Shown in pieces: positions 8,801 to 32,244 of a stretch of DNA of 32,431 bases. The position numbers and the translations under genes are program-made. Position 1 is the stretch's first letter. The number at the start of each line of letters is the position of its first letter. The notes under the pieces were generated by a model that worked only from the letters and a program-made list of their open reading frames with translations, was not told where the DNA came from and searched no databases. The DNA is from Oscillospiraceae bacterium (GTDB lineage Bacteria; Bacillota; Clostridia; Oscillospirales; Oscillospiraceae), in the NCBI GenBank assembly GCA_017435615.1, contig JAFSET010000009.1, positions 1 through 32,431 of the forward strand. The letters are read 5' to 3'.

Positions 8801-10185
8801 CTTTGACAAGAGTGCAGAATATCGGTTTTGTCAGGGACTTCGGAGATTATGCCTTTGCCTACAGCGACCTGACCGATGTAAACCTGGTCAAGGCAGAAAA
8901 GCTTGGCAATATGGTATTTATGAAGGAAGAAAAGGCCCCCTTCAAGGTAAAGCTGGGCCAGAGCCTGCAGTCCGTGGGTGACAATCCCTTTGCTATGTGT
9001 GTCCTGGAGCCGCTGTGCCAAGTGGAGACCACCGAGTTTAACGGCAAGAAGCAGGAAAACAAGATCTACACCTATGCGCTCAGTGACACCGTGCAGGTGA
9101 TCGACGGCAGCCTGTACTGCACCACCGAAAACGGCCTGGAGTTGATTACCTACACCGGCCTGAATAACGAGGATGTGCGTGTAGCCGCGGATACGGTACG
9201 AATCACCGCCTATGCCTTTGCGGGCACGGATGCAAAGATGGTAACCATGCCGGCAACAGTATTCTCCATTGGCCACAAGGCCTTCTACGATTGCCGGAAG
9301 CTGCACACCGTGGTCTTCGGCAGCCAGGAAGCTCCGGTGTTGGAGGAGGAATTCGACCCGGTATACTATGAAAAGCTGAACCACATTCCCGGCACCGGTG
9401 ACTTTGGTACCTACACCGACTATGACGGCAATGAGGTCCAGATCGACGGTATGGGAATCGTACCCTACTTTATGTGGAATGCCACCGATGGCTTGTACTT
9501 CGATGTATTCTACGGAGCCAGCTTCGTGGATTATGTAGGCTATGTGAAGGATAAGCTGACCATGATCCGTCCTGTCAACGGCACCAATTACGAGTCCTTT
9601 ATTTACGGCCAGTACTTTGATGTGGTCATTGACGGTGCCAATGCTCCGGATAAGAACACCCTGGCTACGGTTGCGGCGATCAAGGCACTGCCTGAGCGTG
9701 TGACCTATGAGCACAAGGATCAGGTGGAGGCCGCCCGGGCTATGTACGCCAAAATCGCGACTTTGGAGCAGCAGGCACTGGTTGTCAATTATGCGGACCT
9801 GGTTTCTGCTGAGCAGAGAATTACCGCCCTGGCTCCCACCGAGGAAACCGAGCAGACCGAGCCTACAGAAGAACCTGAGGAGCAGTCCGGCTTCCATGCC
9901 GGTGCCATTGTAGCCATCGTGGCGGCGGTCCTGGCAGCGGCAGCAGCCGTGGTCCTGGTGCTGCGCAAGGGTAAGAAAAACGGTGCGTCTGCTGAAAAAT
10001 CTGAGACTGAGGATATTCCGGAGCTGATAGAGACCGAGTATGCCGAGGAATCGGAGCAGGACGAGGATGAAGAAGCAGAGGAAGCTGAGGAAGCAGAGGA
10101 TGACGGCGAGTCCGAGGATGCGGAGGATGCCGACCAAACCGACGAAACTGAGGGCGACGACGAAACGGAAGAGCCCACTGTCTGA
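2812..10185 (+). CDS. Giant membrane-anchored subtilisin-like (S8) protease with BspA-type leucine-rich repeats
   Basis: This is a 2457-residue surface protease. A signal peptide covers about residues 1-35 (hydrophobic core then AQAA). The S8 domain shows the triad D211 (VLDTG), H285 (HGTHVSG) and S605 (GTSMACP), with oxyanion N381. A PA-type insert (about 460-545) lies between N381 and the serine, as in lactocepin and C5a-peptidase relatives. A Fn3-like region (695-835), two Big_2-like modules (about 1145-1217 and 1271-1347) and over twenty BspA-type LRR_5 repeats (about 1368-2173, recurring I-G-x-YAF-x-x-C/T) follow. A helical stretch precedes one membrane helix (2361-2384), a KGKK stop-transfer and a highly acidic cytoplasmic tail (2385-2457). 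There is no LPXTG motif. The ribosome site is weak (AAAGGCGAG). The repeats probably bind substrate or host surface. The downstream peptide importer suggests a nutritional role. Confidence 0.93.
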   Translation: MKHETNLKIGQIFVVLLLVATLLGGIAVAPVAQAAKFEAASINKVDGLKVDYTQYLDGSVICQLPDTIRDDQEISVIVTLDQINLMDAYQATDKVMSFSQYATAPEAQKLRADIQARTDKVLEKLDAQGIAYTAGKRYDTLLSGVELVIRADAYEAVCKTLGSECGIVMGEVYQAAETQLVENTVNVYETGIFKSGESGYDGTGMVVAVLDTGLDSNHTAFSVDNFKADHLGLTYDEVASVLSQTEAYKLANGLSVDDVYVNEKVPYGYDYADNDPDVYSTHNNHGTHVSGVIVGKDDTITGVAPNAQLVSMKVFSDVVDTARSAWILAALEDCVILGVDVINMSLGTACGFGTEGEEELTSGVYQKIREAGISLVVAASNSYSSAYGSEKNGNLALTSNPDTGTVGSPGTYAHAISVASINGEETPYIKYNKTIIYFEESTDGASEENDFFETLLGEETSKKYEYVVVPGVGRTADYTGMDVRGKIALVRRGDNTFEEKAMIAEAQGAAGIIIYNNVSGEIKMNVGDAKLAVCSIAQDDGEMLAQQGGGTLTISKEQTSGPFISDFSSWGPTPDLGIKPEITAHGGNILSSVTGGGYDRLSGTSMACPNLAGVAILLRQYVVENFPNIADDNCKVNDMINCLMMSTADIAISTNGLPYFVRKQGAGLANLMNAISTPAYLTTYDKQGNLMDKPKLELGDDPQKTGVYEMRFAINNVSDKKLSYELGSYVLTEGVSDTKTNAGEQTVTEEAVVLEGAQTVITAVNGQEHKGSKVTVPAGETVEVTVKVTLSDEDKAYLDQSFENGMYVEGYLTLNAKSGTKVNLSVPYLAFYGDWAKAPLFDLEYFETDADEQDDSIAVEDKVMADAYASRPVGGVSEDYVSYLGSYYFLQDPNDMLISATRDYICLSNQEGTIHSLRFVWAGLLRNAKKIEVVITDDTTGEVIFETVDDDVRKSYGDGGSIRPSNVEIEFDTAEYNLANNSEYTVTLTGYLDYGDGCLETNEKNVFQFPLTMDFEAPTVTNVEFSYEYDKTLKKNRLYAHMDVYDNHYAMSAQLGYVGQGTDDDGNTVPEMKTFEQYLTPIYSQKNSTTTVKLELTDYIYEIKDGARNELTFAVTCYDYALNYATYEIGLPINFVDFYFDSMPDEGITLSPNEVFTLEPLVDPATEWAELLTFTSSKPSVARVVNNKVIAVGSGSAIIKVSDPTTNKSITFPVNVLKEGDEGYRRYDKPVADIFRLTGYTTQKAYYVVDNNEKDIGDTGNIRFFEGNYSLKLYPSETVLLSYDLDAYFPKDTTVEFETSNENIVTIDDYGNVTGVAEGFASVTVKVMMDGKSTYYSESVSVEVKDPYLTTGPSLTHYYGNGGLVVMPEDLNLKEIGNFAFANFEYVQKTEAELEFDDSEEMKQWFIGDSTITKVILPEGIEKIGAYAFANLTGLEEIVLPSTLEAIEYGAFYGCSSLKKITFNGENNLKIISQNAFEGCDLQDTVDLSSVCVISNYAFAGNKKLKGVTTSESLLSIGEYAFAGCESLENMTITAKKVKYGPYAFTGCDALKEFYVNASVLPEGMFYQSKALEKVTIGPDVNEIGEFAFRETKVSTLEVQEGSKTYKVQTADHVLSADGSSLMAVAATASGAYTEKNVGGAKITAVGLGAFSHCTDVTSITLPNVTVVGEYAFASDEEAKKGVTQIQLGTLTQIGEYGFFASDISQMPAVTDQTQIGKYAFAHTELTEVTVPSGMTVQEGTFAECTKLTSVVIGDDVVLGDYAFNMDKDLSYKVLTYDENGEKYFYYEFGTALTSLTIGKNAVIGENAFSYHASLQTVTLGENAKIGKQAFYNCTALTQIDLSKAVSIGDYAFSGDEYYICLDESMAYAAVSSQGEYMTTVHATSIETADLTSAESIGEYAFAMCEKLSSVKLNPAITDIPTYAFASCPMLSSIDLSHVQTIGDYAFQETEALTEVTLTAATELGEYAFVNGKSLKKVTLNKEGTKLGEGAFAYCEALTRVQNIGFVRDFGDYAFAYSDLTDVNLVKAEKLGNMVFMKEEKAPFKVKLGQSLQSVGDNPFAMCVLEPLCQVETTEFNGKKQENKIYTYALSDTVQVIDGSLYCTTENGLELITYTGLNNEDVRVAADTVRITAYAFAGTDAKMVTMPATVFSIGHKAFYDCRKLHTVVFGSQEAPVLEEEFDPVYYEKLNHIPGTGDFGTYTDYDGNEVQIDGMGIVPYFMWNATDGLYFDVFYGASFVDYVGYVKDKLTMIRPVNGTNYESFIYGQYFDVVIDGANAPDKNTLATVAAIKALPERVTYEHKDQVEAARAMYAKIATLEQQALVVNYADLVSAEQRITALAPTEETEQTEPTEEPEEQSGFHAGAIVAIVAAVLAAAAAVVLVLRKGKKNGASAEKSETEDIPELIETEYAEESEQDEDEEAEEAEEAEDDGESEDAEDADQTDETEGDDETEEPTV

Positions 10186-18854: not shown

Positions 18855-20378
18855 TTATTTTTTGATAACACGCAGAAGGGTCAGGGCGCGGCGGCACAGA
18901 GCCAGGAAATCCTTGCGGTTGAAGATCAGACTGATCACGGCAGCGATCAAACTGTTGATCACCACGAAGATCACGCCGTATACCATAAACATTAAATAGC
19001 CGGACACCTGGCTGACCAGCCGCAGCTCCACAGCACATACCGCTACACCGCTGATCAGCAGCGGCAGCAGAAGCTTCAGCAGAGCCGTGAGCTTTCCGGT
19101 AAAGAACCGGGTATGGACATAGCCCATTTCCAAAACAGCCAGCAGTACAGCACACAGCAGGATGGCGCAGAGCATACCGTAAACACCGAAGAAGGTGCCG
19201 CCGAGGATCATAGCCACCACCAAAACCACACAGGTGATCACCTGGAAGTTGCGGCTGACCCGGAACAGACCTGCCATATTCAGCAGATGACCGCTGGGGA
19301 TGTGGAGCATTTCCACGGCAGAGGTGACCACCATCAAAATGGCAATGGTCATATCGTAGTAGTTGGCATCGGTAATATCGGCGGTGTAAAGCCGGATAAA
19401 GGGCAATATCAGCACGCAGCAGGTGGTCAGCATCACAAAAACAGCCAAAAAGGACAGATACTCATACTGTCCGAATACCTGCCAGACCTGCTGCTTTTTC
19501 CGTTCCGTCAGGAGCTGACCCAGGCTGTGCCGGGGGGCATCGATGATACCGTGGAGCAGGTTTTTCAGCATGGTGAATACATTGTTATAAACCGCGTAAA
19601 CGCTGGCTAAAACCGTTCCGCCGGTGGGGGAGATGGATAAAAAGATAATGGGCGCGGACTTGTAAAGCATGCCGGTGATCTTTTGGGCCATCACATCGGA
19701 GGTGCCCTGGATCAGCTCCGGCATAGGCTGAGCGGAAAGGTCCACATCGGGATTTTTCTTCTTCACATAGCCGGCAAGCAGCAAGCTGTTCGCCAGGGTG
19801 AAGACCATGGTGTTAAACCGCACCATCCACATAGGCCCGTTGGCATTGATCATCAGAATGTTGGCCAAATGACCCAATGCCACAGTGATCACCGTAAAGA
19901 TGTTGACGATAAATTCCTTTTGCTGTGTTTGCAGCAGCACTCGGTAGGTGGTGGCGTAGTACAGGTTAAAGGCCGCAGGCACCACCGTCATCACGATCAG
20001 GGTGAAAATGAATTCCCAGCTCAGGCTGCTGTTGGCGCAAAGACCGTACACGGCGGCAACGGCAACACCGATGCCCAAAAACAGCAATCCGATTTTCCGG
20101 AATTTCTTCCGGGTAGCGGAGAGAATTCCGTTGATCAGGGGCGTTTCCTGACGGCCCAAAGGACCAAACAGGGCCACATTGGAGGCTACGGTAAAGCCGC
20201 CCTCCAAAATCAGCAGCACATTGACGATCTGATTGGCTGTGGAATTCAGTCCGTTGAAATCCGAGCCATAGCGGCCGATCACAAGCTGGGTCACCACGAT
20301 ACCGAACAGACCGTTCACTAAGGTCATAGCCATAGCGGTGATGGCGTTGAGTAAGCTTAATTTGTTTTTATTTTGCAT
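18855..20378 (-). CDS. Wzx-like polysaccharide flippase (MOP/PST superfamily)
   Basis: 507 residues with many hydrophobic segments (roughly 12-14 helices) and the N-terminal pattern LLNAITAMAMTLVNGLFGIVVTQLVIGRYGSDFNGLNSTANQIV of polysaccharide-export flippases. It should move the lipid-linked repeat unit across the membrane. The ATG at 20378 overlaps the last 11 bp of the polymerase gene (ATGCAAAATAA) and lacks a clear ribosome site, so coupled translation is likely. An upstream TTG at 20414 is possible but less likely. It is the last gene of the capsule operon, followed by the shared terminator. Confidence 0.85.
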   Translation of the reverse strand: MQNKNKLSLLNAITAMAMTLVNGLFGIVVTQLVIGRYGSDFNGLNSTANQIVNVLLILEGGFTVASNVALFGPLGRQETPLINGILSATRKKFRKIGLLFLGIGVAVAAVYGLCANSSLSWEFIFTLIVMTVVPAAFNLYYATTYRVLLQTQQKEFIVNIFTVITVALGHLANILMINANGPMWMVRFNTMVFTLANSLLLAGYVKKKNPDVDLSAQPMPELIQGTSDVMAQKITGMLYKSAPIIFLSISPTGGTVLASVYAVYNNVFTMLKNLLHGIIDAPRHSLGQLLTERKKQQVWQVFGQYEYLSFLAVFVMLTTCCVLILPFIRLYTADITDANYYDMTIAILMVVTSAVEMLHIPSGHLLNMAGLFRVSRNFQVITCVVLVVAMILGGTFFGVYGMLCAILLCAVLLAVLEMGYVHTRFFTGKLTALLKLLLPLLISGVAVCAVELRLVSQVSGYLMFMVYGVIFVVINSLIAAVISLIFNRKDFLALCRRALTLLRVIKK

Positions 20379-21711
20379 CGTTTTGTTGGTTTTCTGGCTG
20401 GATACTTGCAGCAAGTACAGCTATGCAGATAAAGGCAGTGGGCATAACCAGAACATCGTACGCCGTGGCCTGGATCAGGCTGATGCCAAAATAGAGTACC
20501 AATACAGTAAACAGAGAAACTCTGTCTGAAAGGTGGCCCTCTTTTAGCCGGAATAAGCCTGTTTTGATGACAAGCGTCAAAATCAAGGCCATCAGAAGTA
20601 CAAGGCCGATAACACCGTAGCAGTTGAGCGTTTGCAGAAAAATATTATGCGCCGGTGCATCGATGATCTGTTTGCCCCGGTTGTAGCGGTGGGGGAACAG
20701 AACAGTGCCGGTTCCGATCCAGGGATTTTTGCGTACTTCCTCCAGACTGAGCTCAGTCAGCGCTTCACGCATAGCGTCGCTTCGTTCAATTTGGCTGAGA
20801 GCATTTTTTTGCGCCTGGCTCTCCTTCTTGGACTCTTCTTTCTTGGAGGAGTCTTTATCTGAGGAATTTTTTTGGCTGTCGGAGATATCCGGTAAAAGCT
20901 TGGCAAAGTTAATGCCAGTCTGCCGGTATACATTATACCGCACCCTTCCGGTATTGCAAACAAACAGCACGCACAGCACAGCCAAGGCACAGACGATGGC
21001 AATCATTCCTGTAAAGATGGCACGCTTGCATTTCAGGCAGGATACGATCAGGGGGATTAATTCCACCAACAGCAGGAAAAAGACGGCCCGGGATCCCAGG
21101 GATAGAATCACCACCACAGTGCCGAAAATCAGCAGTCCGTAGAAAATACACCCTGGTACAGAAAAATCGCGGTGACGAAGCTGCTGGAAGGGAATTGGCA
21201 GAAGCAGCAGCAAAGCGGTACCCATAGCAATTTCGTTGACAGGAGATTGGGTGATGTGTTTCTCTACAAACAGCAGGAAAACAAGCCGGTATACAAGCAG
21301 AATGGACAGAAAAATACAGGCGCAATCGGCCAGTTGACGGGAAGCCTGTTGGTTTTTCTGCTGAAAAACAGAGCAGAAAAGGGCAAGTGTGCCCAACAAA
21401 ACGATGGTATAATACAGGCTATCCTTCAGCTCACCGTGGGTTAACAGGCGGTAAAGGGAAATACAGACATAATATACGGCAAAACCATAGTAAAGAATGG
21501 TAAACAAATCTTTTTTTCTGGCCTTAATATCGGAGATCAGCTTAAGCAGCGCAAAAACCATAAAAGGAAGATAGGTCAAAAGTGCTGCGATCTTCAAAAT
21601 GGAAGATGGCGTCTTCAGCGCACCGACCACCCATCTGGACTGAACTGTCAGCATAATGATCAGCCAGGTAAAAAACAGCCACACATAGTTTTTTTGCACA
21701 AATTTCTTCAT
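20368..21711 (-). CDS. Wzy-like O-antigen/capsule polymerase (O-antigen ligase superfamily)
   Basis: 447 residues with about ten or more membrane helices. A large extracytoplasmic loop contains a Ser/Lys/Glu-rich run (near 275-305) and then NPWIGTGTVLFPHRYN...DAPAHNIFLQTLNCYGVIGL. The HNIFLQ-type motif and the G-x-G before it are typical of Wzy_C/O-antigen ligase proteins. AGGAGG lies 5 nt before the ATG. It sits between a glycosyltransferase and the flippase, the usual place for the Wzy polymerase that links repeat units outside the membrane. Linkage specificity cannot be predicted. Confidence 0.83.
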   Translation of the reverse strand: MKKFVQKNYVWLFFTWLIIMLTVQSRWVVGALKTPSSILKIAALLTYLPFMVFALLKLISDIKARKKDLFTILYYGFAVYYVCISLYRLLTHGELKDSLYYTIVLLGTLALFCSVFQQKNQQASRQLADCACIFLSILLVYRLVFLLFVEKHITQSPVNEIAMGTALLLLLPIPFQQLRHRDFSVPGCIFYGLLIFGTVVVILSLGSRAVFFLLLVELIPLIVSCLKCKRAIFTGMIAIVCALAVLCVLFVCNTGRVRYNVYRQTGINFAKLLPDISDSQKNSSDKDSSKKEESKKESQAQKNALSQIERSDAMREALTELSLEEVRKNPWIGTGTVLFPHRYNRGKQIIDAPAHNIFLQTLNCYGVIGLVLLMALILTLVIKTGLFRLKEGHLSDRVSLFTVLVLYFGISLIQATAYDVLVMPTAFICIAVLAASIQPENQQNDAK

Positions 21712-21720
21712 TGGCGCCTC

Positions 21721-22935
21721 CTACTTGTGTTGTTCACAGATTTCGACGATCCGCTGGCACATGATCCTGGGGTTTTTGTGTTTCAGAATAAAGGCTCTGG
21801 CCTGTGCGCCGATCTCGTCACGCTGCTGCTTGGGTAGAGCGCAGAGCTGATAAAGCTTCTGCTTCAAAGCATCAATGGAATTATCTTCAACATATTGAAT
21901 GTACGGATCATATTCTTCCGGAATACCGTCCAGCTTATACCCAATCACCGGGCGGCCGGAGGCTAAATACTCCATGGTTTTGGAAGGGAAGGAATACTTG
22001 GTAAAGGAATCGATATTTTGACGGGGATTGACCAGGACCGTGGCCTCGGATTGAAGCTGCCGGACGGTTTGCCCGTTTACATAGCCAAAATACTTGATGC
22101 CGGTGCAGGTTTTTTCCAGTTCGTGGATACGGGGAACGGCCTTGCCGTTTCCGCACAGCCACAGCTCGTGATCCGGGTGTTCCCGGTATAATTCCACAAA
22201 GGCATCCAAAAGCTCATACATGCCGTAGGCAGGATTGAGCTGGCCGGAATAAAAGATGACTTTTTTGCCGGAGGTGGCCTCGGGCAGCGGTGGCTGCTGG
22301 TCGTTGTAAATGCCCTCAACCACGGCATAGGGCTTTTTGGATACATCGATCAGGTCCTTTAAGTATTCTGTTATGAATACATAGCTATCAAACTGGTTGA
22401 TGCTGCGCATTTTAATGGCGGCACGCATCCGGTCAGCCACTGTGATCTTGCCGCCGGAGTGGGCGTAGAGCACGGCGCTGGGGACATCGGGCATAAAAAC
22501 ACAGGTACGCAGATTGGAAAAGCATTTTCTTGCCATGCGAATGGCTATACAGGCACCCACATGCAGATCGTAAGTCAGCAGCGTAACCGGTTCGCCTTTT
22601 GCCTGCTTTACCGCTTGCCGGATGGCAGCAAAGGTGGTAATCGCCCGGGACAAGTGCTTCAGTACAGGGAAATTAATGAAGCCGCAGTTCAGATCCTTCG
22701 CTTCCGGAAGGTGGCTCCAGTGTTGTTTTCTGAAAATAATCTTGGGGTACGCAGGCCAATTGGGAATGGGGGTATTGTTGATCAGAGAAATGGGCGCACC
22801 AAGCACCTCGTCCAGTCCCCGGATCACATTTCGGTTCAGATTGTGATCCGCAAGGCCCAGGGCAATCTTGCTCTTTTCAGAAAGATATTCATAATCGTCC
22901 ATATTGTATATGGAGCTACAGAATATGTATTTCAT
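21721..22935 (-). CDS. GT-B glycosyltransferase, family 4-like
   Basis: 404 residues. The C-terminal nucleotide-sugar domain shows KKVIFYSGQLNPAYGMYELLDAF, LWLCGNGKAVPRIHELE and FTKYSFPSKTMEYLASGRPVIGYKLDGIPEEY. The last matches the conserved E-x7-E-like donor-binding segment of GT4 enzymes. There is no signal peptide; it acts at the inner membrane face. GGGAGG lies 5 nt before the ATG. It should add one sugar to the lipid-linked capsule repeat. Donor and acceptor are unknown. Confidence 0.85.
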   Translation of the reverse strand: MKYIFCSSIYNMDDYEYLSEKSKIALGLADHNLNRNVIRGLDEVLGAPISLINNTPIPNWPAYPKIIFRKQHWSHLPEAKDLNCGFINFPVLKHLSRAITTFAAIRQAVKQAKGEPVTLLTYDLHVGACIAIRMARKCFSNLRTCVFMPDVPSAVLYAHSGGKITVADRMRAAIKMRSINQFDSYVFITEYLKDLIDVSKKPYAVVEGIYNDQQPPLPEATSGKKVIFYSGQLNPAYGMYELLDAFVELYREHPDHELWLCGNGKAVPRIHELEKTCTGIKYFGYVNGQTVRQLQSEATVLVNPRQNIDSFTKYSFPSKTMEYLASGRPVIGYKLDGIPEEYDPYIQYVEDNSIDALKQKLYQLCALPKQQRDEIGAQARAFILKHKNPRIMCQRIVEICEQHK

Positions 22936-22950
22936 AGGTACCTCCCGGGT

Positions 22951-24120
22951 TTAGCCAAAGCAGACCTCCCGAATACGCTGGCATACCAGCTTGGTGGCCT
23001 CTCCGGTTTCGCAGCCGCCCAGCGCTTCGTAATGTCGGCGGCAGGCCAGTGCGTAGTCTTCTTCGTTAAAGTTCAAGATACACTGCTCCAGTTCGTCATT
23101 GTCCGTAGAGCGAGGGAAGGGCCATTGCTCCACCGGGGTATAGACCTGAGTGGTTTTGATGTAGTGCTCCAGGTCGGTGGCAAACTGGAAGATGGGACGG
23201 CCGGTCAGCATAAAGTCCCACATAGAGGATGAAAAGTCGTTGACCATTGCATCGGCGGCCAACAGCAGATCCTGCATATCCGGATATTCCGTCAGATCCA
23301 GCACATCCCCGGGAAGGCCTTCCCGGTTGGTAACGCACGGATGCAGCCGGTAGGCGAATTTCCAAACGCCCCCAAAACGTGTTTCAAAGGCCCGGCATAC
23401 CCGTTGGGGATCCACCCCGTAGGAGATGGCAATGGACTCCTTGAAATAGTTGTCATTAGGTTTGCGGTAGGTGGGGGGAAACAGCACCAGCTTTTCTCCG
23501 TCCTTTAACCCCAGCTTTTCCCGGATAGCCTGCCGGCGGACTGGGTCCGGATGAAGCATGGCATCGTTACGGGGCATGCCGATATTCCAAAAAACCTCCC
23601 TGGGGGTGAGCATGGAGTCGGAGATGACCTCGGTAAACCGCTCACAGGTAGAAAGGAACACATCGGTCTTATCCGCGGCCAAGTGCAGGTCCTTGCGGAA
23701 CAAGGGCGTATCCTCATACATATCCAGGCCGCATTTTTTATAAGCGCCGCCGCCGTGCCAGGTGTTGATGATGTACTGCTTTTTGCCCATGGGCAGGTAG
23801 GAAAAACCGCCGCTGTTGGTCAAAAAAACCTGACATGTCAGGGCATAGTAGAAGTATTTCAGGGAATTGTATTTGACAACAGTCAGGCCCTTTTCCGCCA
23901 AATGGGCATATTTTTGCACATCGGCTACCGGAATGATGATCTCAAATTGATCAGGGTACTGGGCCAGCAGAAATTCCGCAACGCATTTGGGACTGTCGCC
24001 ATAGGTTTGAGCCAGGGCGTTCATAAGCACGACCCGGTTCTTTTTGATTGGGAAAAGCCGCAGCGGCAGCATCAAAAACCGCATGGCATTTTTTTTCGCA
24101 AACCGGATCCACGCATCCAT
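22951..24120 (-). CDS. CDP-glycerol glycerophosphotransferase-like enzyme (TagB/TagF family)
   Basis: 389 residues. Family motifs are visible: INTWHGGGAYKKCGLD (near 120-135, acceptor/base-binding loop), KLVLFPPTYRKPND, YRLHPCV, and LLLAADAMVNDFSSSMWDFMLTGRPIFQFATD near the C-terminus. TagF-type enzymes transfer glycerol-phosphate or ribitol-phosphate from CDP-linked donors. The ATG at 24120 was chosen, with AAGGAG 11 nt upstream; a TTG at 24129 is only 2 nt from that element. In a capsule operon it suggests a polyol-phosphate substituent or backbone unit. No CDP-glycerol or CDP-ribitol synthesis gene is present in the window, so the donor must come from elsewhere. Confidence 0.85.
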   Translation of the reverse strand: MDAWIRFAKKNAMRFLMLPLRLFPIKKNRVVLMNALAQTYGDSPKCVAEFLLAQYPDQFEIIIPVADVQKYAHLAEKGLTVVKYNSLKYFYYALTCQVFLTNSGGFSYLPMGKKQYIINTWHGGGAYKKCGLDMYEDTPLFRKDLHLAADKTDVFLSTCERFTEVISDSMLTPREVFWNIGMPRNDAMLHPDPVRRQAIREKLGLKDGEKLVLFPPTYRKPNDNYFKESIAISYGVDPQRVCRAFETRFGGVWKFAYRLHPCVTNREGLPGDVLDLTEYPDMQDLLLAADAMVNDFSSSMWDFMLTGRPIFQFATDLEHYIKTTQVYTPVEQWPFPRSTDNDELEQCILNFNEEDYALACRRHYEALGGCETGEATKLVCQRIREVCFG

Positions 24121-24135
24121 TTTGAACAACGCTCC

Positions 24136-25320
24136 TTAATATTTTCTCCAAACCATTTTATCCACCACGCCAGTGTAAGACTGAATCAGCTTGACCACCT
24201 TGGTGGAGACGTTTTCTTCAATATAGTCCGGCACGGGGATGCCGTGCTCACCGTTCAGGTTGAGCTGCACTGCGGTGTCCACCGCTTGCAGCAGGCTCTT
24301 TTCGTCGATACCGGCCAGCACAAAGCAGCCCTTGTCTAAGGCCTCAGGCCGTTCGGTGGAGGTGCGGATACACACCGCCGGGAAGGGGTGGCCTACAGAG
24401 GTGAAGAAGCTGGACTCCTCCGGCAGTGTGCCGGAATCGGATACGCAGCAAAAAGCGTTCATCTGCAGGCAGTTGTAGTCGTGAAAACCCAAAGGCTCAT
24501 TCATCCGCACCCGGGGATCCAGCCGGAAGCCGGTGCTCTCCAGCCGTTTCCGGGACCGGGGATGGCAGGAGTACAAAATGGGCATATCGTATTTTTCCGC
24601 CATTTTGTTGATGGCATTGAACAGGGACAGGAAATTCTTTTCCGTGTCGATGTTCTCCTCCCGGTGGGCAGACAGCAGGATGTACTTACCCTTTTCAAGG
24701 CCCAGGCGGCTGTGAACATCACTGGCGAGGATTTCATCAAGATTGGCATGGAGCACCTCAGCCATGGGAGAACCGGTGACATACACCCGTTCCTTGGGCA
24801 GACCGCACTCGTGCAGATATTTCCGGGCATGCTCGGAATAGCACAGGTTTACATCGGAGATGATGTCCACGATCCGGCGGTTCGTCTCCTCCGGCAGACA
24901 TTCATCCTTGCAGCGGTTACCGGCCTCCATATGGAAAATGGGGATGTGCAGCCGCTTGGCGGGGATGGCGGACAGGCAGGAGTTGGTGTCGCCCAAAATC
25001 AAAAGGGCATCGGGCTTGATCTGGGCCATCAGCTTATAAGAGCAGTTGATGATATTGCCCACGGTAGCGCCAAGATCGTCACCTACCGCGTCCATATAGA
25101 CCTCAGGGTCCTTAAGTTTCAGGTCCTTAAAGAAGACACCGTTCAAGTTATAGTCGTAGTTTTGGCCGGTGTGGGCCAAAATGCAGTCAAAATACTGACG
25201 GCATTTGTTGATCACGGCGGCCAGCCGGATAATCTCCGGGCGTGTGCCTACGATGATCAGCAGCTTCAGTTTGCCGTTGTTTTGAAAGGAAACATCAGAA
25301 TAATCCAGCTTGATCTCCAT
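24136..25320 (-). CDS. capG: Non-hydrolysing 2-epimerase, CapG/WecB family (UDP-L-FucNAc step)
   Basis: 394 residues. The N-terminal domain begins LLIIVGTRPEIIRLAAVI. The active-site region is HMEAGNRCKDECLPEETNRRIVD, and the UDP-binding region includes LLSAHREENID, YSCHPRSRKR and SDSGTLPEESSFF. These match UDP-GlcNAc 2-epimerase-fold enzymes. Lying directly after capE and capF, it most likely performs the last step, C2 epimerisation of UDP-N-acetyl-L-talosamine-type intermediate to UDP-N-acetyl-L-fucosamine, as CapG/WbjD do. The ATG overlaps the capF stop by one base (TAATG), with GAGGTGG upstream. A role as a plain UDP-GlcNAc to UDP-ManNAc epimerase is the alternative, but is less likely here. 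Confidence 0.9.
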   Translation of the reverse strand: MEIKLDYSDVSFQNNGKLKLLIIVGTRPEIIRLAAVINKCRQYFDCILAHTGQNYDYNLNGVFFKDLKLKDPEVYMDAVGDDLGATVGNIINCSYKLMAQIKPDALLILGDTNSCLSAIPAKRLHIPIFHMEAGNRCKDECLPEETNRRIVDIISDVNLCYSEHARKYLHECGLPKERVYVTGSPMAEVLHANLDEILASDVHSRLGLEKGKYILLSAHREENIDTEKNFLSLFNAINKMAEKYDMPILYSCHPRSRKRLESTGFRLDPRVRMNEPLGFHDYNCLQMNAFCCVSDSGTLPEESSFFTSVGHPFPAVCIRTSTERPEALDKGCFVLAGIDEKSLLQAVDTAVQLNLNGEHGIPVPDYIEENVSTKVVKLIQSYTGVVDKMVWRKY

Positions 25321-26522
25321 TATTCTACCACCTCAAAGAAAGTATCAGGTTTTTTCGGGTCGAAGCACTCGTTAGCCCACATTACAGTCACCAGATCTTC
25401 GGTATCGGACAGGTTGATGATGTTGTGGGTGTAACCCGGCAGCATATGGATAGCCTGGATCCGGTCACCGGATACTTCGTAATTCAGCACCTCATCAGTG
25501 CCTACCTTGCGCATTTGGATCAGGCCCTTGCCGGATACCACAATGAAAAACTCCCATTTGGTATGATGCCAGTGCTGGCCCTTGGTAATACCGGGCTTGG
25601 AAATGTTGACGCTGATCTGACCGCAGGAGGCGGTTTTCAGCAGCTCGGTAAAGCTGCCCCGGTCATCCTTGTTCATCTTCAGGTCGAAGATGGCCTTATC
25701 CTTGGGCAGATAGGAAAGATAGGTGGAATACAGCTTTTTGGCAAAGGAGCCGGCAGGAATTTCCGGCATCAGCAAGGTGTCAGGTTGAGCCTTGAAGCTG
25801 TGCAGCAGCTCCACAATGGCACCTAAGGTGACCTTGTGGCTGACAGGGGCGGCGCAGTAGCGGCCCTCCGGCTGCAGAACGGTATTTACGCCGTCAAATT
25901 CGCAGTGATGCTCCTTACCCTCCAAGGCATCCAGCATCTCGTCCACCAGATCGTCAATGTACAGAAGCTCCAGCTCCACGCTGGGATCGTTGACAGTAAT
26001 GGGCAGATCGCAGGCAATGTTGTTGCAGAAGGTGGCAACCGCGGAGTTGTAGTTGGGGCGGCACCACTTGCCGAACAGATTGGGGAACCGATACACCAGC
26101 ACCTTTGCACCGGTTTCGGCTGCGTATGCAAAAAACAGCTCTTCGCCGGCTTTTTTGCTTTTGCCGTACTCGCCCTGGGCGTAGCGGCCCACTAAGGTGG
26201 CTTGAATGGAGGAGGACAGCATTACCGGGCAGGCGTTGCCGTATTTTTTCAGGGTGTTCAGCAGGGTGCTGGCGAAGCCAAAGTTGCCCTGCATAAATTC
26301 CTCCTGGGTCTGAGGGCGGTTTACGCCGGCCAGATTGAATACAAAATCTGCCTTTTGGCAGGCTTCCTCCAAAAGCTCCGCGGGGGAGTCGATGTCGTAA
26401 AGGTACAATTCCCCAATTTGCAGACCGGGCCGTGTTTTATCCCGGCCATCCTTCAGGCATTGCAGCGCGGCAGTGAGGTTTTTCCCCACAAAGCCGGCAG
26501 CACCGGTGATCAGAATATTCAT
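25320..26522 (-). CDS. capF: CapF: bifunctional SDR reductase/cupin epimerase for UDP-L-FucNAc
   Basis: 400 residues. The N-terminal SDR domain has the NAD(P)-binding GAAGFVG (7-13) and YGKSKK with the catalytic Tyr/Lys pair. The C-terminal part, from about 285, is a cupin with KGQHWHHTKWEFFIVVSGKGLIQMR (metal-binding histidines near 314-318). This two-domain plan is diagnostic of CapF/WbjC: the cupin epimerises at C3 and the SDR reduces C4. It begins 2 bp after the capE stop, with GGGAGG 10 nt upstream. Length and order agree with the Staphylococcus aureus type 5/8 capE-capF-capG arrangement. Confidence 0.95.
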   Translation of the reverse strand: MNILITGAAGFVGKNLTAALQCLKDGRDKTRPGLQIGELYLYDIDSPAELLEEACQKADFVFNLAGVNRPQTQEEFMQGNFGFASTLLNTLKKYGNACPVMLSSSIQATLVGRYAQGEYGKSKKAGEELFFAYAAETGAKVLVYRFPNLFGKWCRPNYNSAVATFCNNIACDLPITVNDPSVELELLYIDDLVDEMLDALEGKEHHCEFDGVNTVLQPEGRYCAAPVSHKVTLGAIVELLHSFKAQPDTLLMPEIPAGSFAKKLYSTYLSYLPKDKAIFDLKMNKDDRGSFTELLKTASCGQISVNISKPGITKGQHWHHTKWEFFIVVSGKGLIQMRKVGTDEVLNYEVSGDRIQAIHMLPGYTHNIINLSDTEDLVTVMWANECFDPKKPDTFFEVVE

Positions 26523-26524
26523 AC

Positions 26525-27571
26525 TTACTTTGCCTCCCAGGCATCCAGCTCGTCCCGGATGAGCTGCAGGGACAGCAGCTTTTCCTTCACCTGCTCCACA
26601 TTCAGAAGATCGGTGTTGCTGGAGTTGAACTCCGTCAGGGTGTTGCGCTCGGTGTTGCCTTCCTTGAAGTACTTGTCGTAGTTCAGGTCACGCTTGTCCG
26701 AGGGTACACGGTAAAACTCGCCCAGGTCGATGGCGTTGGCACATTCTTCATTGGTCAGCAGAGTCTCATACATTTTTTCACCGTGGCGGATGCCGATGAC
26801 CCGGATCTCGTGGCCGGGAGCAAACAGACCGGTGACGGCCTGTGCCAGGGTCTCAATGGTGCAGGCCGGTGCCTTTTGCACCAAAATATCACCGGATACG
26901 CCGTTTTGGAAGGCAAACAGCACCAGGTCCACCGCCTCGTCCAGGCTCATAATGAACCGGGTCATAGACGGCTCGGTGATGGTGATGGGATTGCCGGCCT
27001 TGATTTGATCGATCCACAGAGGGATCACGGAACCGCGGGAGCACATCACATTGCCGTAACGGGTGCAGCAGATCTTGGTCTTTTCCGGAGCAACGGTGCG
27101 GCTTTTTGCTACAATGACCTTTTCCATCATAGCCTTGGAGGTACCCATGGCGTTGACAGGATAGGCAGCCTTGTCGGTGGACAGGCAGACCACATTTTTC
27201 ACACCGGCTTCAATGGCGGCTGTGAGCACGTTGTCGGTGCCGATGACGTTGGTCTTGACGGCCTCCATGGGGAAAAACTCACAGGAGGGCACTTGCTTCA
27301 GAGCCGCCGCGTGGAAAATATAGTCCACGCCGTGCATGGCATTCTTTACGGAAGCCAGGTCACGGACGTCGCCGATAAAGAACTTGATTTTGCCTGCGAC
27401 CTCAGGCATTTTGGCCTGAAATTCATGGCGCATATCGTCCTGCTTCTTTTCGTCACGGGAAAATACACGGATCTCGCCGATATCGGTTTGCAGAAAGCGG
27501 TTAAGCACGGCATTGCCAAAGGAACCGGTACCACCGGTGATCATCAGGGTCTTTCCGGAAAAAACAGACAT
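26525..27571 (-). CDS. capE: CapE: UDP-GlcNAc 4,6-dehydratase/5-epimerase
   Basis: 348 residues, extended SDR of the short FlaA1/WbjB type. The NAD(P) motif is GGTGSFG (13-19). The catalytic region is LSTDKAAYPVNAMGTSK, with Ser131, Met142 and Lys146, the SMK variant of the usual SYK triad seen in CapE/FlaA1/WbpM relatives. It has no membrane domain, unlike PglF/WbpM. It catalyses the first committed step from UDP-GlcNAc to UDP-L-FucNAc. The ATG at 27571 was chosen because GGAGG lies 8 nt before it; the longer reading begins inside that ribosome site. It is 29 bp after the WbuB-like gene. Confidence 0.94.
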   Translation of the reverse strand: MSVFSGKTLMITGGTGSFGNAVLNRFLQTDIGEIRVFSRDEKKQDDMRHEFQAKMPEVAGKIKFFIGDVRDLASVKNAMHGVDYIFHAAALKQVPSCEFFPMEAVKTNVIGTDNVLTAAIEAGVKNVVCLSTDKAAYPVNAMGTSKAMMEKVIVAKSRTVAPEKTKICCTRYGNVMCSRGSVIPLWIDQIKAGNPITITEPSMTRFIMSLDEAVDLVLFAFQNGVSGDILVQKAPACTIETLAQAVTGLFAPGHEIRVIGIRHGEKMYETLLTNEECANAIDLGEFYRVPSDKRDLNYDKYFKEGNTERNTLTEFNSSNTDLLNVEQVKEKLLSLQLIRDELDAWEAK

Positions 27572-27600
27572 ATCAAAAACCTCCAAAAAAGTTTATATCG

Positions 27601-28782
27601 TTATCTTGACAGGAGCTCCTGCTCCAGGTGGTTCATAAATTGGTCACGGGTAAAATGAGCCTGATAGTAGGCTTTGGCATTTCTGCCAAGGGCTGCCCGG
27701 TCCGGACAGGCAAGAAAATCCCGGACGGCCTGAGCAAGGGCTTCACTGTCCCCGGCGGGGACGCAGAAACCGCAGTGGGCCTCAGTCAGCACGGTGGGGA
27801 TCTCGCCGTTTGCGGCGGCAAGGATCGGCTTTCCTGCGGCCATATAGGATTGGACCTTGGCAGGCAGGGTCATGCCGATGAAGGGATCTTCTGTCAGGGT
27901 CACCAGCATGGCATCCGCCATGGCGTAAAATTCAGGCATCTGCTCCGGTGGCTTTCGGCCGTGGAAGATCATATTGTGCAGGGATCGCTCGGCGGCGGAG
28001 GCTTTTAAATTCTCCAGCTCGGAGCCGTCACCGACGATGTGCCAGCGTAACCGGCTTTGGTCCTTGAGAAGGGCAGCGGCCTGCACCACCGTGTGCAGAC
28101 TTTGGGCAGCGCCCACATTGCCGGCAAACATCAGGTCCACAGTGTCTTTTTCCGGCATTTGGGGCAGCCGGTCAAACTGGGCCGTGGCGTATTGGGGCAG
28201 GTAACCGATCCTTTGGTCCTGGATTTGAAATTGCTCTTGCAGATATCCCCGGAACATCCGGGAGGTGATCAGGATGCGGTCTGCCTGGCGGTAGAGCCTG
28301 GCAGATACCCGGTGAAACAGCCGGTAAACAGGGGACTGCTCTGCCACACCGCCGGCGGCCAGACTGGCCGGCCACAGATCCATGGTGTAAAACACGCACT
28401 TCTTTTTGTGACGCTTGGCGTAGGACAGCGCGGCGTTTACCATCATAATGGGGGAGGACTGGATAGCCAGCACCACATCGAAATCTCCGGGAAGGCCCAT
28501 ACAAAAGGCAGTGGAGGAAGCGGCGAAGCTGTAGTAGTTGAGAATCCGGAAGAAAGTACCGCTGCGCCGGCCAACGGTGAAGGTGCGGCAGATCGTTACG
28601 CCGTTATGGGTTTGCCGGCGGTTTTTGCCACCTTTATATTCCGGGAAAATATAGCCCATTGGGTAGTTGGGAATATCCGTTACCACATGGACCTCATGTC
28701 CCCGGGCCGCAAGCCCTTCGCACAGATCTGTGGAGGGGAAGGCTTCCGGCCAGTAATGCTGGGACACCACAAGTATTTTCAT
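27601..28782 (-). CDS. wbuB: WbuB-like glycosyltransferase (GT4), probable L-FucNAc transferase
   Basis: 393 residues, GT-B fold. The N-terminus MKILVVSQHYWPEAFPSTDLCEGLAARGHEVHVVT and YPMGYIFPEYKGG, with MDLWPASL near 135, are hallmarks of the WbuB-like group. The C-terminal donor domain shows DLMFAGNVGAAQSLHTVVQAA, WHIVGDGSELENL and EDPFIGMTLPAKVQSYMAAGKPILAAANGEIP. WbuB is the proposed FucNAc transferase in other FucNAc-containing polysaccharides, and here it lies immediately before capE-capF-capG, so the same role is likely. AGAGG lies upstream of the ATG. The gap to the preceding sugar transferase gene is 17 bp. Confidence 0.88.
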   Translation of the reverse strand: MKILVVSQHYWPEAFPSTDLCEGLAARGHEVHVVTDIPNYPMGYIFPEYKGGKNRRQTHNGVTICRTFTVGRRSGTFFRILNYYSFAASSTAFCMGLPGDFDVVLAIQSSPIMMVNAALSYAKRHKKKCVFYTMDLWPASLAAGGVAEQSPVYRLFHRVSARLYRQADRILITSRMFRGYLQEQFQIQDQRIGYLPQYATAQFDRLPQMPEKDTVDLMFAGNVGAAQSLHTVVQAAALLKDQSRLRWHIVGDGSELENLKASAAERSLHNMIFHGRKPPEQMPEFYAMADAMLVTLTEDPFIGMTLPAKVQSYMAAGKPILAAANGEIPTVLTEAHCGFCVPAGDSEALAQAVRDFLACPDRAALGRNAKAYYQAHFTRDQFMNHLEQELLSR

Positions 28783-28799
28783 GGGTATGCCTCTTTCCC

Positions 28800-30218
28800 T
28801 CAGGAACCGGCAGGAACCTGATCCTGCAATTCCTCATACATCTTTTCCAGCTTCTCTTCTTCAGCCTCGGCAGCGTCAAAGCCTTCGGTGGAGTCCTTGC
28901 TGAAGAGGATGCGGACGGTCAGCAAGATCAGCTTGATATCCAAAAGAATGGAGTAATGCTCGATATACATCAGGTCCAGGCGAAGCTTGTCGTAAGCACT
29001 GGTGTTGTATTTTCCGTAGATCTGGGCATAGCCGGTCAGGCCGCCCTTGACCTTCAGCCGGTAATAAAACTCAGGGATGTTCGCGCCGTACTTTTCCATA
29101 TGCTCCAGCCGCTCCGGACGGGGGCCGACGATGCTCATATCTCCCTTTAGGATGTTGAGGATCTGAGGAAGCTCGTCCACCCGGCAGGCACGGATCACGC
29201 GACCGACCTTGGTGATCCGGGGATCCTTTCCGGTGGCAGGAATGGACTGGCCGTTCTTTTCCGCATCCACGATCATACTGCGGAATTTCAGAATATCAAA
29301 TTCCCGGCCATTGATGGTGGCCCGGCGCTGCTTGTAAAACACAGGACCCCGGTCCTCTATCTTGATGGCAAGGGCGACGATGGCCATAATGGGCGCGGCA
29401 GGAATCAGGGCCAACAGGCACAGCACGATGTCCATAGTCCGCTTGGCAAAGCGCTGACCGGCAGTCAGGCCCTGGCCGTGGACTAAGAGCATGGGTGTGT
29501 CAAAGGTGCTGATATCTTCCGCGTTTTTTACGATAATGTCCGCGATCTTGGGAACCATGTAAAGACGCAGACGGTGTTTGTAGCAGAATTTGACGATGTC
29601 GTTGCGGATCTGGGCAGGCACATCGTTGAGCACAACCGCGTCATACTTGACGATCTGGCGGCAGATCTCATCCAGTCCCCGGTCAACGGAGATCAGGCTG
29701 TCTACCCGGTATTTATCCCGGCGGTGGTCCATCTTCAGCTTCATACCCACGGCGGTTTTGGAGCCGTAGATCATGATCATATTGTAGGGGGCGTAAATGT
29801 GGTAGTAAATAAACTTGTAACCGGCAACTGCCACGGTGGAGATCACCACATCTGCCAGCGTCAGCAGCAAAATAGGCACAACAGACACCATTTCGTTGGC
29901 GATCAGGCTGAGCTGAAAATAGGTGATGATATTGACAATAAACATCGCCAGCCATTGGGCGGTCCAAAGGTCGGCCTTGCGGAGCTGACCGAACTGGAAG
30001 CCGTCAGAATTCTGGATGAACAGGTAGCTCAGTACGGCGTAAACACCTACGAGGATGTATTTGCCGTTGCCCAAATAGGGAGGGAAGGTGCCGCGGTCGT
30101 AACCGGTGCGCCAGGTGATGTAGTAGGCAACACACAGCACGATAACCTCAAACAGGCTTTCAATGCTTTGGACAGTGCCTTTGGTGTGGCTGCTTAATGT
30201 TCTGTTTCTCTTCATCAT
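28800..30218 (-). CDS. Polyprenyl-phosphate sugar-1-phosphate transferase (initiating enzyme, WbaP/WcaJ type)
   Basis: 472 residues. The N-terminus has about four membrane helices and a nucleotide-binding-like central domain. The C-terminal third is the conserved transferase: RTMDIVLCLLALIPAAPIM, FYKQRRATINGREFDILKFRSM, DELPQILNILKGDMSIVGPRPE and KGGLTGYAQIYGKYNTSAYDKL. It loads the first sugar-phosphate onto undecaprenyl phosphate and so starts capsule assembly. Two adjacent ATGs (30218 and 30215) follow AAGGAG; the first has a 6-nt spacer. A longer open frame runs upstream into the leader and promoter and is not real. This is the first gene of a nine-gene operon. The starter sugar is not certain. 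Confidence 0.93.
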   Translation of the reverse strand: MMKRNRTLSSHTKGTVQSIESLFEVIVLCVAYYITWRTGYDRGTFPPYLGNGKYILVGVYAVLSYLFIQNSDGFQFGQLRKADLWTAQWLAMFIVNIITYFQLSLIANEMVSVVPILLLTLADVVISTVAVAGYKFIYYHIYAPYNMIMIYGSKTAVGMKLKMDHRRDKYRVDSLISVDRGLDEICRQIVKYDAVVLNDVPAQIRNDIVKFCYKHRLRLYMVPKIADIIVKNAEDISTFDTPMLLVHGQGLTAGQRFAKRTMDIVLCLLALIPAAPIMAIVALAIKIEDRGPVFYKQRRATINGREFDILKFRSMIVDAEKNGQSIPATGKDPRITKVGRVIRACRVDELPQILNILKGDMSIVGPRPERLEHMEKYGANIPEFYYRLKVKGGLTGYAQIYGKYNTSAYDKLRLDLMYIEHYSILLDIKLILLTVRILFSKDSTEGFDAAEAEEEKLEKMYEELQDQVPAGS

Positions 30219-30382: not shown

Positions 30383-30411
30383 ATTATAAAACATATAATG
30401 TTTTTTTTCAA
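30383..30411 (-). promoter_or_regulatory. Strong sigma-A-type promoter of the capsule operon
   Basis: On the minus strand TTGAAA (30411-30406) and TATAAT (30388-30383) are separated by exactly 17 bp, nearly consensus, with an A-tract in the spacer. Transcription should begin near 30376, leaving a leader of about 158 nt before the first capsule gene. Confidence 0.82.
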
Positions 30412-30499: not shown

Positions 30500-30529
30500 A
30501 AAAAAAGTGCGCAGCCGAAGCTACGCACT
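30500..30529 (-). terminator. UUCG-loop intrinsic terminator of the candidate small RNA
   Basis: On the minus strand AGTGCGTAGC (30529-30520) pairs with GCTGCGCACT (30515-30506) around a TTCG loop, with one G-U pair, and is followed by seven T residues when the last stem base is counted. The plus strand has no matching T-run, so it works only leftward. No protein gene lies between it and the nearest minus promoter, which implies a short noncoding transcript. Confidence 0.88.
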
Positions 30530-30654
30530 GAAAAATGCAGAGCCTCCATGCTGCGACACATCTTTCACAAGCCAAAATAGGTGCGAAAACGAGGATGCAT
30601 TTTTACCAAATGTAAAATGCACCTACTATGGCTTAAATATTCAGATGTGTCGCA
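30500..30654 (-). ncRNA. Candidate small structured RNA gene in the divergent intergenic region
   Basis: A promoter (30660-30688) and a terminator (30500-30529) bracket a stretch that is one large imperfect palindrome. The predicted transcript starts near 30654 with UGCGACACAUCU, which pairs perfectly (12 bp) with AGAUGUGUCGCA (30563-30552). Inside, the 15-nt segment 30633-30619 pairs with 30584-30570 at 14 of 15 positions, counting one G-U. A UUUUAC/GUAAAA hairpin caps the structure. A single-stranded linker (30551-30530) then leads to the terminator. No coding frame with a ribosome site fits. Length is about 155 nt. It resembles 6S-like rod RNAs in general outline but was not matched to any family. 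A MITE is the main alternative, though the correctly placed promoter and terminator argue for a gene. Confidence 0.6.
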
Positions 30655-30659
30655 AAAAC

Positions 30660-30688
30660 ATAGTACTATATTCGTATAATTTTGTCAA
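30660..30688 (-). promoter_or_regulatory. Promoter of the candidate small RNA
   Basis: On the minus strand a consensus TTGACA (30688-30683) and TACTAT (30665-30660) are separated by 17 bp. The expected start, 6-8 nt downstream, falls at the first base of the 12-bp closing stem of the predicted RNA. Confidence 0.68.
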
Positions 30689-30825: not shown

Positions 30826-32244
30826 ATGAACATAAAAAGACTGACCTGTATCTTGATCGGTCCGCTGCTGTTTTTGGCGTGCTGGCTGTTTTTGCCTGCA
30901 TCCGTCTTTGAGGCAGCATCAGCCCGCGCGGCTGTAGGCACCGTTGCCTGGATGGCTTTTTGGTGGATCACCGGACCTGTGGATTTCGCGGTCACGGCGT
31001 TTTTGCCCATTGCCATGAACGCCCTGTTCCAGATGACCGATATGTCTGCGGTCATTGCCAACTATGCGTCCGAGACCATTTTGCTGCTGCTGGGTGCTTC
31101 CATCCTGACTGCCTCCTGGGAGGAGACCGGTCTGGACAGCCGTATTGCCGCCAAGTTCTTATCTATGATCGGCAGTAACCTGCGTCAGCAGATCGTATTT
31201 TGGTTCATTTTGTGTACAGTGCTGTCCGCGATTTTGCCCAATGCGGTGGTTTGCGCAGCCATCACTCCCATTGCCGTTTCCATGCTGCGCTATGTGGGTG
31301 AAAAGGATATTGCCAAGAGCAAGAAAGGTTCTTTGCTGCTGCTGACCATTGCCTACGCCACCGGTGTTGGCGGTTTGGCTTCTCCCCTGGGCGGCGCTAT
31401 GAACCTGGTCACCGTGGATTACTTAGAGCAGCTTACCGGTCAGGAGTATATGTATGTATCCTGGGTGATCCGGTTCCTGCCCATTACCGTGGTTTTGGTT
31501 GCCAGCAACATTTTGATGCTGATGATCGGCACCAAGAAAACCGACGAGCTGGGTGGCTCCAAGGAGTTCTTTGCCACACAGTATAAGTCCCTGCCGCCCA
31601 TGACCGCTGAGGAAAAGTGGTCCCTGGGTCTGTTCCTGCTGGCCACCGGCCTGGCCTTCTCCCGTCAGTTCTATCAGGACTACCTGCCCGGCCTGAAGCC
31701 TGCCTATGTATTCATTATCTGCGCGATTTTGGCCTTCTTCGTGATGCGTAAGGACGGCAGCCGCCTGATGAAGTGGAAGAACACCCAGAAGCTGATCGGC
31801 TGGGAGCTGATCTATGTATTCGCCGGCGGCCTGGCTGCAGGCACCCTGATCAACAAGAGCGGCGCTGCGGACGCCATTGCTAAGCTGGTCTCCAGCTCCA
31901 ATTTGGACGGCGGCTTTATCACCGTGCTGGTGATCGTTACTCTGACCGTTCTGATGTCCGACGTGACCAGCAATACTGCTACTGCGGCAGTGGCAATGCC
32001 CATCGTGATCGGTATTGCCCAGGGCATTAACAAGGATCCCATTCCCTATGTGTACATTGCGTCTATCGGTGTGAACCTGTCTTACATGCTGCCCACCTCC
32101 ATCCGTGCCATTCCCGTTGGCTACGGCCTGGAGCCCAAGTACATGCTGAAGAAGGGTATTCCCATCACCATCGTGGTAATTCTTTTGATGAGTCTGATGG
32201 GCTGGCTGATGATGACCTATTGGCCTGCTTTCAGCACGATCTGA
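30826..32244 (+). CDS. SLC13/DASS-type divalent anion:Na+ symporter
   Basis: 472 residues with about eleven or more membrane helices. The two internal repeats carry the family's substrate/sodium clamp signatures: GVGGLASPLGGAMN in the first half and SDVTSNTATAAVAMPI in the second (the SNT motif). Family members import di- and tricarboxylates (succinate, malate, citrate) or sulfate with sodium; the substrate cannot be fixed here. The ATG at 30826 follows GGAGG with a 7-nt spacer; the longer frame from 30745 starts at the transcript start and is rejected. It is a single-gene transcript facing away from the capsule operon. Its leader contains the ten bases that are complementary to the candidate small RNA. 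Confidence 0.9.
   Translation: MNIKRLTCILIGPLLFLACWLFLPASVFEAASARAAVGTVAWMAFWWITGPVDFAVTAFLPIAMNALFQMTDMSAVIANYASETILLLLGASILTASWEETGLDSRIAAKFLSMIGSNLRQQIVFWFILCTVLSAILPNAVVCAAITPIAVSMLRYVGEKDIAKSKKGSLLLLTIAYATGVGGLASPLGGAMNLVTVDYLEQLTGQEYMYVSWVIRFLPITVVLVASNILMLMIGTKKTDELGGSKEFFATQYKSLPPMTAEEKWSLGLFLLATGLAFSRQFYQDYLPGLKPAYVFIICAILAFFVMRKDGSRLMKWKNTQKLIGWELIYVFAGGLAAGTLINKSGAADAIAKLVSSSNLDGGFITVLVIVTLTVLMSDVTSNTATAAVAMPIVIGIAQGINKDPIPYVYIASIGVNLSYMLPTSIRAIPVGYGLEPKYMLKKGIPITIVVILLMSLMGWLMMTYWPAFSTI

Follow-up and report, generated by a model that had tools for sequence, protein, structure and literature searches.

Leaders such as the PyrR-regulated pyr leaders, the S-box and similar riboswitches are attenuators that combine an anti-antiterminator, an antiterminator and a terminator, and the T-box leaders of Gram-positive bacteria are multi-copy elements that act by antitermination. 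Proteins can throw such a switch as well, with PyrR and the BglG-type antiterminators as precedents. Tandem c-di-GMP-II riboswitches have been described, most of them before a putative surface-anchor gene (PMC9481103), and for the purine riboswitch of B. subtilis yxjA a strand exchange of an upstream helix with the terminator region has been proposed (PMC9756952). Further, thousands of candidate structured RNAs have been reported from human microbiomes (PMC8040213). Here we describe a large RNA family of gut-associated Clostridia that is absent from Rfam 15 and whose members, judging from their position and pairing pattern, are very probably cis-acting transcription attenuators. One member lies on the minus strand of the window, i.e. 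the whole 32,431-nt stretch of DNA that was analysed, which comes from an incomplete genome of 2.27 Mb (76.6% complete).

The features of this locus are collected in Table 1. An earlier note on the DNA had proposed a minus-strand promoter with a 17-nt spacer, a perfect stem beginning at the predicted first transcribed base, a second stem, a capping hairpin and a UUCG terminator with a T-run, and all of these elements are present where it had placed them. The capping hairpin corresponds to the pairing of segments A and B, which is found in the window copy and co-varies across the family. Taken singly, the promoter match proves little and the terminator match is also unconvincing; a 701-base region held 5 promoter-like sites against 1.7 expected and 1 terminator-like site against 0.7 expected. 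The predicted structure stood up to folding: the 157-nt RNA reached −63.6 kcal/mol, while 200 shuffled versions averaged −38.0 (z = −6.64) and none of them was as low.

Table 1. Features of the RNA locus and of the genes behind it, in window coordinates.
Feature	Position	Strand	Basis or remark
Putative promoter, TTGACA-17-TACTAT	30660..30688	-	TTGACA 30688-30683, TACTAT 30665-30660; 10/12 consensus matches
Structured RNA	30500..30654	-	start predicted at 30653/30654, end in T-run; fold and covariance-model match
P1 5' strand, 12-bp closing stem at predicted first transcribed bases	30643..30654	-	fold; covaries
P1 3' strand	30552..30563	-	perfect 12-bp partner of 30643-30654
J1/2 with conserved AUA (30640-30638)	30635..30642	-	ATA conservation in aligned copies
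P2 5' strand	30619..30634	-	fold; pairs with 30569-30584
P2 3' strand	30569..30584	-	fold; one mismatch against 30619-30634
Segment A, 5' side of apical hairpin, overlaps top of P2	30608..30626	-	A:B partner-swap z −11.7
Segment B (GGTAAAAATGCATCCTC), partner of A (hairpin) or D (pseudoknot)	30591..30607	-	B:D partner-swap z −9.0; 8/14 pairs changed on both sides
Segment D, linker (GGAGGCTCTGCATTTTT), partner of B (pseudoknot) or E (antiterminator)	30531..30547	-	partner-swap test, pair counts, folds
Segment E, terminator 5' arm and loop, also antiterminator 3' side	30515..30529	-	D:E partner-swap z −7.9; prefix folds
Intrinsic terminator, 10-bp stem, UUCG loop, T-run	30500..30529	-	stem-loop 30529-30506, then 7 T
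Separate promoter-like site of polysaccharide operon, TTGAAA-17-TATAAT	30383..30411	-	sequence match
Sugar transferase (Bac_transf), next gene on strand, first of polysaccharide gene cluster	28800..30218	-	begins 282 nt past RNA

The earlier note had also recognised no known family in this RNA, and the database searches agree. The window gave no Rfam 15 family at gathering threshold, and a scan at relaxed E-value returned five weak matches, all implausible. The RNAs of 39 family loci (about 37 distinct places) were likewise without a match at threshold, and the Rfam matches elsewhere in these loci were to tRNA, RNase P, Gut-1 and drum only; the leader copies at L266/L299 (the same place) and L282 have Gut-1 RNA (RF01706) and drum RNA (RF02958) as neighbours, no more than about 1.2 kb away. 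T-box and other Rfam families were ruled out since neither the window RNA nor the family RNAs gave Rfam matches at threshold, and inspection by eye showed nothing resembling a T-box or a specifier in these RNAs. 6S RNA (RF00013) was rejected as well, the window RNA having no match to its model at threshold or under relaxed settings. A separate 6S-like RNA is present in the window's genome (L002, G000:C82:49492-49693), scoring 41.2 bits against the Rfam cut-off of 46.4. No paper describing the window RNA was found among those judged by title and start of abstract. A term search of the main text of PMC8040213 gave no hit; the supplementary lists of that paper lay outside the search and may contain the motif unnamed.

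Related DNA was detected by BLAST in 22 of 99 genomes, the window's own counted in. A seed alignment was made from 23 of 28 copies taken from BLAST or phage records (3 partial and 2 unusually long copies were dropped), on which RNAalifold predicted 31 pairs; for 19 of these, one sequence or more differs at both partners. The lack of conserved pairing in relatives that the earlier note had named as a refutation is thus not seen. The covariance model built from this alignment, which was used for the family searches, identified three copies in the window's genome (144.9, 52.5 and 49.8 bits), the best being the window RNA at 30501-30655, and no second copy within the window. Within the order, the model found copies in 142 of 394 genomes, spread over 74 of 168 genera; for the class the figure is 100 of 391 genomes, and among 299 genomes sampled across the phylum the window's own alone gave a match. 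The spread is patchy, with most sampled genomes of the order carrying no copy, and the copy counts per genome in the order and class scans are lower bounds, at most 7 candidates having been scored per genome. Deeper scoring of 15 chosen copy-rich genomes gave 5 to 30 copies each. A pattern scan of named genomes found at least 118 stretches, and among the 80 matches listed were metagenome-assembled genomes titled Clostridia, Oscillospiraceae, Ruminococcus and similar, many of them from animal gut samples. A phage origin was considered and rejected: two unannotated fecal 'phage' records carry the RNA, but viral contigs gave a single stretch in a scan with one exact pattern, which diverged copies escape. 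Plasmids gave no match to the RNA.

Most copies stand directly before a gene. In a set of 132 copies (177 matches minus 41 antisense and 4 repeat entries of the same place), an ORF of at least 45 aa preceded by a Shine-Dalgarno (SD) sequence starts 10-40 nt past the terminator in 90, compared with 4 of 128 in the upstream-side control, and within 80 nt the corresponding counts are 108 of 132 and 26 of 128. A stricter ATG-only rule applied to a second set of 55 copies (56 matches minus 1 repeat entry) found an adjacent ORF in 32; the remaining 23 comprise 12 upstream units of tandem arrays and 11 that are not. On the 5' side, 131 copies were examined: in 94 of them the best −10 box has its end exactly 4 nt ahead of model position 1, and 106 carry a −10 box with at least 5/6 matches to TATAAT 0-10 nt upstream, versus 15% of shuffles. 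Across the family, the predicted start of transcription lies at the foot of the first stem. Because the −10 box and the downstream ORF hold fixed positions, promoter, RNA and gene form one recurrent arrangement. The same-strand position just before a coding sequence that is expected of a cis-acting attenuator is found in the family but not in the window copy. Fifteen tandem arrays were read, with two or three units in succession (such arrays occur at L065, L068, L096, L137, L274, L276-L278 and L290-L296); their spacers measure 43-65 nt in 12 of 17 cases and 98-157 nt in 5, and a promoter-like stretch, judged by eye, precedes the units.

The proteins encoded behind the leader are enriched in secreted types. 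Of the downstream proteins, 94 reach at least 100 aa, and in 65 of these a signal-peptide- or lipobox-like start was called, by simple rules rather than a trained predictor, versus 37 of 165 background ORFs (p ~2e−13). The background ORFs were taken from these loci with a plain ATG-plus-SD criterion that may admit spurious frames; for the lipobox alone the counts are 21 of 94 and 12 of 165. Family scans covered 119 of the 124 downstream ORFs, each cut at 330 aa. Among these 119, Pfam assigned BspA-type LRR to 22, followed by smaller groups of zinc-ribbon proteins (5), AMP-binding enzymes (4) and DUF6809 (3). None of the best 25 families of the defence library matched more than 3 of the 119, and the commonest of the best 25 families of the phage library (22 of 119) have no assigned function. 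In the genome with 30 copies, 6 of the 22 copies read precede ORFs with BspA-like starts, as judged by eye. Small proteins of 77-78 aa with similar starts (MNIKxELLKxYIxDF...) recur directly behind the leader in different genomes (L013, L264, L268, L269 and L300).

The linker in front of the terminator, which the earlier note had taken to be free, is not: segment D is complementary to the apical segment B, and in shorter transcripts it folds together with the arm of the terminator. Three alternative helices, A:B, B:D and D:E, are retained in the window copy together with P1 and P2. To compare them across the family, duplex energies of each copy's own partners were set against those of partners exchanged between copies, using 64 non-redundant copies of the 125 parsed from the 132 (7 were unparsable for the segments). 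With pairings that had first been seen by eye on the same sequences, own partners were favoured for A:B (−16.07 vs −11.75 when swapped), B:D (−15.94 vs −13.00) and D:E (−17.13 vs −14.50; z scores in Table 1), and the control pairings A:D (z = +1.2) and B:E (z = +0.2) had no own-partner advantage in the same 64 copies. The same test within one genome, on 21 copies drawn from the 55-copy set (2 of the 55 unparsable), gave 0 of 2000 shuffles reaching the own value for A:B, B:D or D:E, and 1726 and 761 of 2000 for the control pairings. Pairs were also counted in 23 copies aligned with MAFFT, one row serving to define them; the B:D pseudoknot has 90.6% of cells paired, with two of its 14 pairs unpaired in 10 of the 23 sequences. 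The antiterminator helices have 86-96% of cells paired and 2 of 11 pairs changed on both sides; here conservation weighs more than compensatory change.

In a diverged copy, the second unit of L274, the same segment D duplexes with B at −19.3 and with E at −19.0 kcal/mol. Folded alone with the terminator end missing, the linker-terminator stretch adopts the antiterminator in 64 of 64 copies; when it is complete, 31 copies have the terminator as their minimum free energy (MFE) structure and 33 the antiterminator. Prefixes of the window RNA of 136, 139, 142 and 145 nt have the antiterminator as MFE structure (−61.3 at 145 nt) and those from 148 nt onwards the terminator (−61.5 at 148 nt, −61.8 in full), and barring the terminator 3' arm from pairing gives −57.0 versus −61.8 kcal/mol for the full fold. 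In these models the linker-terminator region is a poised switch, with an intrinsic terminator and a mutually exclusive antiterminator that are both conserved. Some bases are conserved without a partner in the proposed helices, namely the AUA of J1/2 (95-97% as ATA, weighted over 95 aligned copies), the GG before the A-run and the UU after B; the AUA might act as a hinge or a binding site. Strict conservation is not seen for the AUG in segment B. A U-A-U triplex of the U- and A-runs was set aside on paper, as the strand directions seem unfit.

The promoter-like sequence, the stems, the three co-varying alternative helices, the terminator, the proximity to start codons and the secreted-type enrichment were all computed directly. 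The family is best read as cis-acting attenuators because of its leader-like position and the co-varying antiterminator in its 3' half. Under the mechanism that we propose, most units would bring their own sigma-A-type promoter and be transcribed from the base of a long stem, P1+P2, capped by the A-rich apical segment B and followed by segment D and the terminator. Segment D would have two mutually exclusive partners. When paired with B it would form a pseudoknot that spans P1 and leaves the terminator 5' arm free, so that the terminator forms and transcription stops; when paired with E it would act as the antiterminator, and transcription would continue into the gene behind. The A:B hairpin competes with the pseudoknot, and therefore whatever favours A:B or occupies B would turn the gene on. 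The pseudoknot would then represent the off state, tipping the switch towards termination, the unpaired 3' end of B may serve as a toehold, and a cellular signal presumably sets the balance between hairpin and pseudoknot. Geometry speaks against the pseudoknot in that it has to join the two ends of a rod of about 25 bp, tip and base, and this would call for a sharp bend at J1/2.

Two versions of the attenuator differ in what throws the switch. The first is a strict-sense riboswitch: a small molecule or ion would bind the rod, at the J1/2 AUA and the apical segment, and pick the hairpin or the pseudoknot. We consider this possible while leaning somewhat against it: the conserved partnerless bases are what a binding site might leave, and tandem units are known in riboswitch classes such as c-di-GMP-II (PMC9481103), but these bases are few for an aptamer, and the genes behind have a likely location, the surface, in common rather than a pathway. 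GGDEF matches were found in 6 of 10 copy-rich genomes. Since GGDEF was not found in the other 4 of the 10 (94-100% complete), the 30-copy genome among them, c-di-GMP is unlikely to be the general signal. The second version, plausible but on balance doubtful in our judgement, is that segment B or D is occupied by a protein of the host or by an RNA acting in trans. The sequences of both segments are conserved beyond their pairing, and a shared factor would explain this conservation as well as the apparent restriction of the family to one class.

That the 155-nt terminated product is itself functional, as a stand-alone trans-acting sRNA with the genes behind it incidental, appears improbable for the family. 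The window copy and some others do lack an adjacent ORF, the units of tandem arrays show, by eye, promoter-like stretches before them and a terminator of their own, and conservation exceeds bare pairing needs in the aligned copies (A55-A58 99-100%, T126-T129 100%). Against this stand the start codons placed 10-40 nt past the terminator, the co-varying antiterminator, which would be pointless in a free sRNA, and the fact that copies in one genome fit their own segments better than each other's. The earlier note had seen here a regulatory RNA of roughly 155 nt whose terminator has no protein gene to serve. An unannotated, conserved and structured RNA with its own promoter-like sequence is indeed present, and the absence of a gene to serve is right for the window copy; neither that absence nor the free-standing reading carries over to most of its relatives, which are leader-like. 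In sequence, the window copy has the putative promoter and terminator of its own, with no coding sequence attached, that a stand-alone sRNA would have, and may be one; most of the family lacks this arrangement.

The window copy stands apart from the proposed attenuators that precede genes. No ORF lies directly behind it, and it is 87-88% identical to four copies in other families of the order, which precede different genes as judged by their N-termini. The flanks of one compared pair are little alike (56% and 43% over 60 nt). Because this identity is found before different genes and between unlike flanks, the module has probably moved, and in the window it probably arrived alone or lost its gene. 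The window copy could now be a remnant or a solitary RNA, or it could feed into the polysaccharide genes from upstream; as an exception within the family it may function on its own, if it functions at all. The polysaccharide cluster (18855-30218, minus strand) encodes a sugar transferase, glycosyltransferases, epimerases, and glycerophosphotransferase-like and Wzy-like proteins, with Pfam matches for 8 of 9 scanned proteins. An ancestral link between RNA and polysaccharide genes was rejected, as only the window's own locus has the RNA among 30 loci with transferase homologues, of which 27 of the 29 others hold at least 500 upstream bases and 14 of the 30 had the leader region read; the homologues are 44 to 66% identical and not all need be orthologues. 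A transferase homologue is present in 32 of 61 genomes of the genus, and TATAAT stretches similar to that of the promoter-like site before the window's transferase could be made out by eye in several of the 14 loci read. Divergent from the RNA lies a Citrate/sulfate-type transporter (CitMHS, Na_sulph_symp; 30826-32244, plus strand), and further away on the same strand as the transporter is a 2457-aa ORF (2812-10185) with, by eye, a subtilase-like start and BspA-like repeats.

Finally, a MITE-like mobile repeat whose ends form a stem by chance might account for the scattered multi-copy distribution and for the apparent movement of the module, but is hardly tenable: a match to a scattered MITE was one of the outcomes that the earlier note had named as refuting it, but instead of near-identical copies placed at random relative to genes, the 22 copies of one genome are diverged (median pairwise identity 0.61, none above 0.9), most copies share the strand of the coding sequence and keep a set distance to its start codon, a placement that by itself largely refutes this reading, and three alternative helices are kept by compensatory changes.

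Read as attenuators, these RNAs form a class found in 142 of 394 genomes of one order, with up to 30 copies per genome and no Rfam entry, which would be a sizeable addition to bacterial gene control and points to a shared signal setting part of the surface of many uncultured gut bacteria. We tentatively extend this to a Clostridia-wide system of up to 30 units per genome, in which pseudoknot-switched, promoter-bearing modules might set much of the surface proteome (BspA-type LRR proteins and lipoproteins) and move between genes, with solitary copies now being free RNAs. The unit from promoter to terminator is small enough for a direct in-tube assay with RNA polymerase.

Compared with known systems, the family resembles 6S RNA in its shape and size (a rod of about 155-200 nt) and in bringing its own promoter and terminator, and differs in not matching the 6S model, and it resembles the T-box leaders as a multi-copy, antitermination-type leader while lacking an Rfam T-box match. 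With the yxjA purine riboswitch it shares the strand exchange between an upstream helix and the terminator as the proposed switching principle (PMC9756952), but the fold and the partners are others and no Rfam purine riboswitch match was obtained. Like the tandem c-di-GMP-II riboswitches (PMC9481103), it occurs in tandem units and with surface-type genes; unlike them, it has no Rfam match, the units in the 15 arrays have their own promoter-like stretches by eye, and 4 of the 10 copy-rich genomes gave no GGDEF match. With attenuators of the PyrR and S-box type it has in common a leader RNA, an intrinsic terminator, a co-varying antiterminator and an upstream competitor for the antiterminator strand. 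It is set apart from these by matching no Rfam family at threshold and by the nature of the competitor, which here would be a long-range pseudoknot between the apical loop and the linker.
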